Translations under genes and position numbers: made by a program | Shown: positions 22,620 to 29,349 of the stretch, one piece after another | Position numbering within the stretch: position 1 is the stretch's first letter | Layout: each line of letters starts with the position of its first letter | Origin: Parasphingorhabdus litoris DSM 22379 | Lineage (GTDB): Bacteria > Pseudomonadota > Alphaproteobacteria > Sphingomonadales > Sphingomonadaceae | Reading direction: 5' to 3' | DNA: 64,000 bases | Assembly (NCBI RefSeq): GCF_020906275.1 | Contig: NZ_CP086727.1 | Coordinates: 744,001 to 808,000 of the forward strand | Notes under the pieces: model-generated | What the model saw: the letters and a program-made list of their open reading frames with translations, nothing else | The model's database searches: none | Told to the model about the DNA's origin: nothing

Positions 22620-24578
22620 ATGAAAGCTAAAAACTCTCAAATTGAAAACCGGCTTCTTGCGCTCGCCAATTATGTCCTTTTCCTGCTTGTTTTAGCGATT
22701 TTATCCGCAAGTGATATCGCCTCAGCTCAGATTCCGGACCCTTTGCCTGATGACCCTGGGGGGCCAGGATCAAACCCCATTCCGCCTTCTCCTGCTGAAG
22801 AATATTCGGTGAGTGAAGCAGGGGTCGACATGCGCACGGGCCAGTTTCTCTATTCCAATTCAGACCTCTCTATCGGCAATCTTAGCCTCACGCGGCATAA
22901 TGGGAGTAACGATTGGAAATGGTCCAAACCGATGGGGCAATTTTCGCATAACTGGCATATTTACGTGACCTATAAACCCATTAAAACCGGCGGTGCGCAA
23001 TTTGCCGTGGTTGCGGATGGGCGCGGCCATGGTTTTACTTCTGGCTCGAATTCGAACAGTTTCACTGCTCGTTCTCTTACTCAGCGTGCGTCTATTAAGG
23101 CCATACCAATAGGCTCTGGCGCTCTTGACCGTTATCTCGTCTACACGGCGGCTGATGGAACTAAAATAACGTTTCGACGGCCCCGACAACATCGAGACGG
23201 TGCCGTTGTTCATTCTATCAATGGAACACAGAGAAAGGGTATTTTTGCCAGCAAAGTGGAAGAAATTGACGGCACAACTTATTGGTTAAGCTATGACGAG
23301 CCCACTAGTTCATCACCGGCCTATTTGCGGCGTGTTACCAGCAATCGTGGCTACGCCCTTATCTTTCAATATGTAAGCATTTCTGGCTTCAAATATGTGA
23401 GCAAAGTCTGCGCAATAAATTTGGCATTTGCGGTCGCGCCATCGAGCAACATCTGTCCCGCCGGTGAACCTACCGGTGAATATGTGTACGGCAGCAACGG
23501 TCGTATGACATCTTTCAGAAACGCTGCCATGGACGTACACCGTTATAGTTCGACTTACAGCAAGGCAGCTTGGATAAATGCCCCTTCGCCTCCCAAAGAA
23601 TATGAGTGGACCGAAACCTATACGCACCCGGGACAAGCAACCCCCTATTTAACGAATATTGTGTTTCGCACTGGTTTGTATGAGAATATAAAAAGTCAAA
23701 CCTTTGCAGATGGTCGAATCTATAATTATGTTTGGAACATAACCCATCATAATGATTATACCATGGAAGTTGCTGGCGGTGTGATGACCCGCAATGATGG
23801 TGCGACAACGACCGTGCAATTCCAAGAAATGACTCGACCAGGATATCAGTCCGGCGACGCGTATCTGATCTCTTCAGGGCCAAAACGTGTCATCGATGCG
23901 CTAGGCCGTGAATCAACGGGCGATTACTGTATCAGGATACTTGTCCATAGCAGCACAGGCTGCGCCATTGTTCCGCTGCGATATTGGATATCGCCAGATG
24001 GAAATCGGACGGAATATGAACGTGATCTTTATGGCAACATTCTTGAATCAAGGCAAAAAGCAAAGCCAGATTCAACTGCTGCTGATATCGTAACGAAAGC
24101 TGTTTACGGCTGCAATGCATCGCCCGGTTGTTTCACTAAACCAATGTCTATCACCGATGCAAATGGCAATACTACGAGCTATACTTACAGCACCGAAACG
24201 GGTCAGGTTCTTACCGCAACTGGCCCGGCTGTAAACGGAGTAAGTCCTCAGACACGTTACACATATGCACAGCGCTATGCTTGGATAAAGAACAGTTCGG
24301 GCGGCTATGTTCGCGCAGCTACGCCGATATGGGTGCTGAAGCAAAAGAGTAGCTGCCGGACAACAGCAGCTTTGGGCGCAGGTTGTGTAGGCGGCGTCGC
24401 TGATGAAGTGAAGACACTCTATGATTATGGCCCTGATAGCGGTCCTAACAACCTCTTGCTGCGCGGGATGACGGTCGTGGCGGACGGCCAGACGCTGCGC
24501 AGTTGTTACACTTATGATGAGAACGGTCGGCAGACTAGCGAGACACCGCCGCGTGCCAATTTGAGTGCATGCCCATGA
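22620..24578 (+). CDS. YD/RHS-repeat exported protein, N-terminal-type module A
   Basis: 652-aa protein with an N-terminal signal segment (LFLLVLAILSASDIASAQ). A Pro-rich linker is followed by the EAGVDMRTGQFLYSNSDLSIGN entry motif typical of the start of sphingomonad RHS proteins, then FSHNW, a VCAINLAFAVAPSSNICPAG segment and degenerate YD repeats (PDGNRTEYERDLYGN, TDANGNTTSYTYS, RSCYTYDENGRQTSETPP). It stops at ANLSACP, with no RHS core, no DPxG motif and no toxin tip. In ordinary RHS proteins this half would be fused to the core, so this is a split system. The last 333 nt are nearly identical to the end of module B. Confidence 0.8.
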   Translation: MKAKNSQIENRLLALANYVLFLLVLAILSASDIASAQIPDPLPDDPGGPGSNPIPPSPAEEYSVSEAGVDMRTGQFLYSNSDLSIGNLSLTRHNGSNDWKWSKPMGQFSHNWHIYVTYKPIKTGGAQFAVVADGRGHGFTSGSNSNSFTARSLTQRASIKAIPIGSGALDRYLVYTAADGTKITFRRPRQHRDGAVVHSINGTQRKGIFASKVEEIDGTTYWLSYDEPTSSSPAYLRRVTSNRGYALIFQYVSISGFKYVSKVCAINLAFAVAPSSNICPAGEPTGEYVYGSNGRMTSFRNAAMDVHRYSSTYSKAAWINAPSPPKEYEWTETYTHPGQATPYLTNIVFRTGLYENIKSQTFADGRIYNYVWNITHHNDYTMEVAGGVMTRNDGATTTVQFQEMTRPGYQSGDAYLISSGPKRVIDALGRESTGDYCIRILVHSSTGCAIVPLRYWISPDGNRTEYERDLYGNILESRQKAKPDSTAADIVTKAVYGCNASPGCFTKPMSITDANGNTTSYTYSTETGQVLTATGPAVNGVSPQTRYTYAQRYAWIKNSSGGYVRAATPIWVLKQKSSCRTTAALGAGCVGGVADEVKTLYDYGPDSGPNNLLLRGMTVVADGQTLRSCYTYDENGRQTSETPPRANLSACP

Positions 24579-29349: not shown

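Follow-up and report, generated by a model that had tools for sequence, protein, structure and literature searches.

A split RHS toxin locus in Parasphingorhabdus litoris with separately exported halves and a candidate type II secretion route

The 64,000-nucleotide window analyzed here (bases 744001 to 808000 of the complete single-contig 3.61-Mb genome of Parasphingorhabdus litoris DSM 22379) contains a locus in which an RHS protein, typically a single long chain, is divided among separate genes: two N-type modules, A and B, are followed by C, which carries the Rhs-associated core and a variable tip. There is strong evidence that N and C are two halves of one protein. We propose that they form a two-gene polymorphic RHS toxin whose halves assemble in the periplasm and leave the cell by a type II secretion system (T2SS), a reading to which we assign a probability of about 0.6. 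The main features of the locus, in window coordinates, are as follows.

22620 to 24578, + strand: N-half A, with a signal peptide, a DUF6531-like entry (below the Pfam cut-off), YD repeats, and a border ending in ...TSETPPRANLSACP-stop
24231 to 24602, + strand: constant cassette copy 1 (last ~115 codons of N, stop codon, ribosome binding site [RBS], and start codon of the next gene), delimited by identity to copy 2
24599 to 26596, + strand: N-half B, with a body 35% and a tail 91% identical to those of A
26249 to 26620, + strand: constant cassette copy 2, delimited by 30-nt window identity
26617 to 28797, + strand: C-half, with its own signal peptide (about 48 amino acids [aa]), YD repeats, and the Rhs-associated core up to a PxxxxDPTG border
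28798 to 29349, + strand: variable C-terminal tip of C, with an HTH...S..D pattern that recalls Tox-JAB-2 by eye
29366 to 29785, + strand: small hydrophobic open reading frame (ORF) directly 3' of C, an immunity candidate by position only
32490 to 34454, - strand: orphan N-half D, intact and ending at the same border, with no adjoining C gene found

The original prediction that A, B, and C are separate genes was borne out, as all three ORFs are intact. A and B terminate at the same residue (...YDENGRQTSETPPRANLSACP-stop), a Sec-type signal is called on each of the three proteins by hydropathy and the AxA rule, and the starts of B (24599) and C (26617) carry good RBSs (GGAGATAAGGTAATGG), as had also been claimed. 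The ORF of B opens at 24569 and that of C at 26587, both overlapping the preceding stop codon as ATGA. The N-type modules are 652 aa (A) and 665 aa (B) long, and C, comprising core plus tip, has 910 aa. A, B, C, and D all gave PF05593 (YD/RHS repeats) matches exceeding the family cut-off, and TIGR03696 (Rhs-associated core) was matched in C; a Pfam scan of the tip of C returned no credible match.

The comparison with fused homologues that the original prediction called for is informative, because such homologues exist and read continuously through the border, which identifies N and C as halves of one RHS protein. The same genome contains a fused homologue of 1436 aa at 3.00 to 3.01 Mb (L012) as well as a second split locus (L011; N at 5356 to 7224 and C at 7215 to 9809). 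Among 397 sampled genomes of the family, C was matched in 117 (only the two best candidates per genome were scored, here and in the secretin scan described below), and the well-matched full-length rows among the matches listed had frames mainly near 850 to 970 aa or 1390 to 1500 aa, plus partial and longer ones. A set of 43 sequences yielded 28 adjacent N-C pairs and 13 fused genes, and the best 80 hits of a scan of named genomes represented 79 loci, called by script as 59 split, 16 fused, and 4 with C only or cut. After removal of duplicates, 81 distinct split pairs were available from Alpha- and Gammaproteobacteria, with hosts including Sphingomonadales, Caulobacterales, and the gammaproteobacterial genera Gilvimarinus, Catenovulum, Glaciecola, and Rheinheimera. 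Loci with C on contig ends, without N, or not paired (L045, L052, L068, L084, L149, L151, and L158) were dropped before counting, as were L060 and L016, in which N was present but unpaired by the script or C was cut. Plasmid records gave only two weak partial matches.

The border itself differs between the two forms. In fused proteins, it is one continuous YD hairpin, typically ...YDxxGxxxSxDGPxxGxxDTxxxxYD..., and Cys is absent from the ~40 residues before C in all 28. Split N proteins typically end in CYxYDxxGxxISETxPxxxxxxCP, and in 79 of 85 distinct split N tails, one of the last 5 residues is Cys and another Cys lies 15 to 40 residues before it; this Cys pair may form a disulfide capping the free end of the border hairpin. 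The end of N coincides with the main border in 75 of the 81 pairs. The six exceptions are one pair each in L042 and L047, with an extra Gly-rich end, L120, and three loci (L136, L139, and L147) cut about 100 residues further into C, at a second split site, so splitting occurred at more than one site. N frames of 1355 to 1432 aa, with an additional front part of several hundred residues, were observed in L065, L110, L121, L122, and L133.

The start of C is equally distinctive. A hydrophobic stretch ahead of the conserved C motif was found in 68 of 69 measurable split C proteins versus 1 of 28 fused proteins, and an AxA-like site was found in 68 of 69 versus 7 of 28; the remaining 12 of the 81 split C proteins were missed by the motif rule, and their listed starts resemble signal peptides by eye. 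In a tree built from the C cores of 81 split and 28 fused proteins (109 in total; quick search, LG+G4), we counted at least 10 undirected changes between the fused and split states, compared with a shuffled mean of 25, and fused forms are nested at several places. Therefore, the same kind of protein occurs both fused and split.

Predicted structures suggest a similar division. N and C, modeled singly (pLDDT, 88.5 and 80.9, respectively), map in these models onto successive halves of solved Rhs cocoons: on RhsP (8h8b), the N model aligns to 146 to 603 and the C model to 535 to 1121, and on the TcdB2-TccC3 chains, N reaches about 1191 to 1225 and C starts at about 1321 to 1326. TcB/TcC is described as a two-chain RHS shell with a variable toxin on the C chain, in which an orphan TcC can pack with a shared TcB (PMC11067744). 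The modeled N matches TcB chains and the modeled C matches TcC chains, but TcC residues 5 to 6 align to residue 144 of the C model, so the split here lies about 140 residues earlier than the TcB/TcC cut. Similar lengths in a sequence search had suggested the same cut, which the structure alignment ruled out. In further differences, N (638 aa) is too short by length for the added propeller of TcB, the SpvB family has no match in the genome, and both halves here carry signal peptides.

Both ends of the system vary, apparently independently of each other, around a conserved middle. The genome G010, from the same genus, has an orthologous locus, with an upstream flank that is 87% identical and the first ~490 bp of A kept as a remnant, past which come a different N body and then the B tail, the junction, and the C core. 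The DNA from B tail through junction to C core is 94% identical over 2600 bp, up to the core/tip border, and protein identity between the window and G010 is 24% in the N body, 92% in the tail, 95% in the C core, and 8 to 35% in the last four tip windows. The ratio of nonsynonymous to synonymous substitution rates (dN/dS) of C between the two species is 0.16, indicating purifying selection. These comparisons provide good evidence for recent head replacement. Elsewhere, L147 has tandem heads, L086 and L043 retain head or tail remnants, and two loci in genome G256 are more alike around the junction. At the other end, the 81 split-C tips fall into 56 groups by blastp linkage, the largest with 16 members, and P-x(3-6)-DPxG is kept in 76 of the 81 split C proteins. 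A recombinase-like ORF (resembling a resolvase/invertase by eye) lies upstream of the orthologous G010 locus, at L043 1569 to 2855.

Within the window, A and B share a duplicated segment at the same position. In 30-nt windows, their identity is 0.93 to 1.00 over a stretch that begins 330 nt before the stop codon and extends 30 nt beyond it, reaching the next start codon; outside this stretch, it is 0.17 to 0.30, save for one transition window of 0.50. This contrast excludes chance similarity and indicates a recent duplication (~99% identical) of the last ~345 nt of A and B plus the stop codon, RBS, and next start codon, and, because identity runs through that codon, the duplicated unit ends at the start codon of the following gene. 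The dN/dS values of the A and B tails are 0.25 and 0.39. The original prediction had suggested interchangeable N-halves: one orthologous locus pair and the A/B duplication both support exchange of N bodies, and we infer that A and B may themselves be interchangeable.

Several lines of evidence connect the RHS genes with a T2SS. The genome has two T2SS loci, of which the second (3.01 to 3.02 Mb) begins roughly 7 kb away from the fused RHS gene, and small exported ORFs lie between them; the matches of its GspG and GspD pass the curated cut-offs, and those of its GspE and GspF fall short. Beside the fused gene and this T2SS, L012 9927 to 15181 holds about ten small exported ORFs, and among six scanned, one is a DUF5992 protein and the others have no Pfam match. 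The secretin of this second T2SS is full-length in 5 of 32 genus genomes and a broken fragment in G025, and the N module was found in exactly those five genomes; by simple counting that ignores relatedness, the chance of such co-occurrence is 5e-6, or 2.4e-5 among 24 good genomes. Across the family, a secretin at least 60% identical is present in 8 of 397 genomes, all 8 of them RHS-positive (4.8e-5 by the same counting, again with relatedness ignored and with the secretin and C samples of 397 taken as the same genomes). In eight further genomes with the second T2SS operon (E to D), RHS genes are on the same contig in all eight, lying in the same fetched stretch in six and no more than about 10 kb away by coordinates in two (G027 and G010), and in G198, a split N-C pair begins about 2.2 kb after the operon. 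VipB, the only type VI secretion system (T6SS) marker searched, was not found in the complete genome, and the Escherichia coli control was detected. T2SSs export folded proteins, which fits assembly in the periplasm. Linkage and co-occurrence are thus suggestive of T2SS export of the split RHS protein.

Other observations weigh against the proposed toxin or its export route. The five genus genomes with both secretin and N module may be one lineage, and G016, also from this genus, has weak C matches without N and without the linked secretin. In the window genome, a long distance separates the second T2SS, which lies near the fused gene, from the split locus. At a threshold of 60% identity, no match to the linked secretin was found in 109 of the 117 RHS-positive family genomes, and with only 8 of 117 carrying it, most would need another T2SS. 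Regarding the halves, 7 of the 81 N frames, either broken or located at contig ends, are shorter than 560 aa, and in L120, no N terminates at the border. The N and C alignments overlap by about 40 to 70 residues on the single-chain Rhs structures 8h8b, 8cp6, and 8qjc and by 120 residues on 7q97, where C fits poorly (root mean square deviation, 15), and two low-Z Tc rows (6h6e and 6suf) put N elsewhere. Across 64 pairs (N outside 560 to 830 aa and L136, L139, and L147 left out), Spearman correlations of distances were 0.48 to 0.64 between C blocks, 0.20 to 0.36 between C and tail, and 0.32 to 0.50 between C and body; N as a whole thus appears loosely tied to C, with the tail tied no better than the body, and a general docking-tail rule is not established across the clade. 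Closer co-evolution of C with the tail than with the body, slightly favored in an earlier set of 25 pairs (Pearson correlation with C, 0.43 for the tail versus 0.37 for the body), was not supported, as the tail did no better in the 64. Finally, the ORF after C has no family match in the Pfam scan, and no immunity family was identified; Pfam scans of tips and downstream ORFs overall gave nothing useful.

The halves may instead assemble as proposed and exit by lysis, vesicles, or some other route, with the linked T2SS serving the small exported proteins or something else. The rarity of the linked secretin among RHS-positive family genomes and the row of small exported ORFs adjoining the second T2SS would fit such an exit, but we regard it as rather unlikely given the 5/5 co-occurrence in the genus, the same-contig linkage in eight further genomes, and the precedent of Bcn-A from Xanthomonas perforans, an RHS toxin with an immunity gene that is reported to be active in the supernatant and to lose activity in an xpsD (T2SS) mutant (PMC7259588).

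It is unlikely that N modules are independent exported YD proteins, such as adhesins or lectin-like surface proteins, which have only operon and ancestry in common with a C that forms a shell alone. The separate signal peptide on each protein, the solitary D, and the weak correlation of N and C distances are in line with independence, but N stops at one homologous point of a fused-continuous protein in 75 of 81 pairs, and stop and start codons overlap in 51 of 81. In addition, the N and C models correspond to the first and second halves of Rhs cocoons, respectively, and if N is the first half, C alone would be an incomplete shell.

The junctions bear on whether programmed frameshifting at the ATGA overlap occasionally yields a fused N-C protein. 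Among the 81 pairs, 67 use TGA as the stop codon. At the junction, 51 show a 4-nt overlap of stop and start codons, 12 a compatible frame that lacks a start, and 18 another frame, with gaps of 5 to 50 nt in some pairs. The overlapping frames at the border would permit frameshifting, but the 18 other-frame pairs and the gapped pairs reject it as a general explanation, and fusion would bury the signal peptide of C and join A to B, making this alternative highly improbable. Sequencing error or decay of a fused gene, which the original prediction had named as the finding that would overturn it, would fit a few broken-looking members (N of L050 and L064; L125) and has a negligible probability as the origin of the split, which is conserved over 81 pairs, nearly all with a signal-peptide-like C start at the same point, in addition to the complete single-contig genome and the purifying selection on C between species.

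In the two-gene, T2SS-exported toxin that we favor, coupled genes would give rise to N (A or B) and C, and Sec would export each of them. Once in the periplasm, N would form the first part of a YD shell, and C would complete it around the tip. After cleavage of the tip at the conserved DPxG site, the shell would be secreted, assembled and folded, via a T2SS, in this genus probably the second, RHS-linked one. Recombination in the constant tail-stop-RBS-start cassette would bring in new N bodies and displace older heads upstream, in a mirror image of known tip displacement. Physical assembly of A or B with C, tip cleavage, and the use of A and D are steps that we infer. More tentatively, the system may be a doubly polymorphic weapon, in which a two-part periplasmic shell is sent out whole by its own T2SS, heads are swapped via the cassette and tips via the core, and stored heads (A, B, and orphan D) serve one C. 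If the proposed toxin is real, an RHS shell can be built after export from separate chains, which suggests a route for large folded cages out of Gram-negative cells without a T6SS; a polymorphic toxin gains a second variable end; and outer-membrane crossing of Sec-exported RHS toxins becomes directly testable.

The original prediction held that a cocoon assembled from separately exported halves would be a new variant of polymorphic secretion. The split into separately exported halves is supported; in contrast, two-chain RHS shells (TcB/TcC; PMC11067744) and a T2SS-dependent RHS bacteriocin (Bcn-A; PMC7259588) are already on record. Bcn-A is described as active only with two further proteins, one of 124 aa and one of 290 aa that has a signal peptide and some identity to WapA/RhsA (PMC7259588); these two recall the small exported proteins and the small YD protein seen here. 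Compared by description rather than by sequence, Bcn-A differs in being a single 1398-aa polypeptide, without a signal sequence according to its authors, and the available portion of that report describes neither a split nor a linked private T2SS (PMC7259588). T6SS Rhs effectors (RhsA, RhsP, Tse5, and Tse15) share the shell fold, Rhs core, and C-terminal cleavage motif, but they are single chains delivered by the T6SS, whereas the present system has two exported chains, in a genome without a VipB match. In Rhs tip displacement, variable ends are described as being exchanged by recombination in the constant part, with displaced copies left beside the gene (Jackson 2009; PMC2935791); here the front half is also replaced, and an older head is left upstream. 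Signal peptide plus RHS is listed as a Sec/T2SS trafficking class of polymorphic toxins by Zhang 2012 (PMC3482391), a source whose available portion does not describe the two-gene split, the feature seen here. Among the papers listed by literature searches on split, two-gene, or T2SS-linked RHS proteins, whose scope left most subscription journals and bioRxiv outside, none describes this split.

The remaining features around the locus are as follows.

21066 to 21407, + strand: small exported protein with two YD repeats, upstream of A
21439 to 21792, + strand: small exported cluster protein without a Pfam family
22178 to 22561, + strand: small exported cluster protein without a Pfam family
29934 to 30925, + strand: orphan tip, a displaced core fragment plus a second tip, with a broken frame

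With a strict pattern, 16 of 70 split and 5 of 24 fused genes were preceded by ORFs resembling the small YD protein, and a small YD protein as a universal partner was rejected on these counts. A small exported frame at 21789 to 21866 of the window halts after about 25 aa, and G010 has an intact relative. A 21-nt repeat occurs three times at 29798 to 29877, in the interval separating the orphan tip from the ORF that follows C, and a pentapeptide-repeat protein (PF00805) is encoded at 16580 to 17266.
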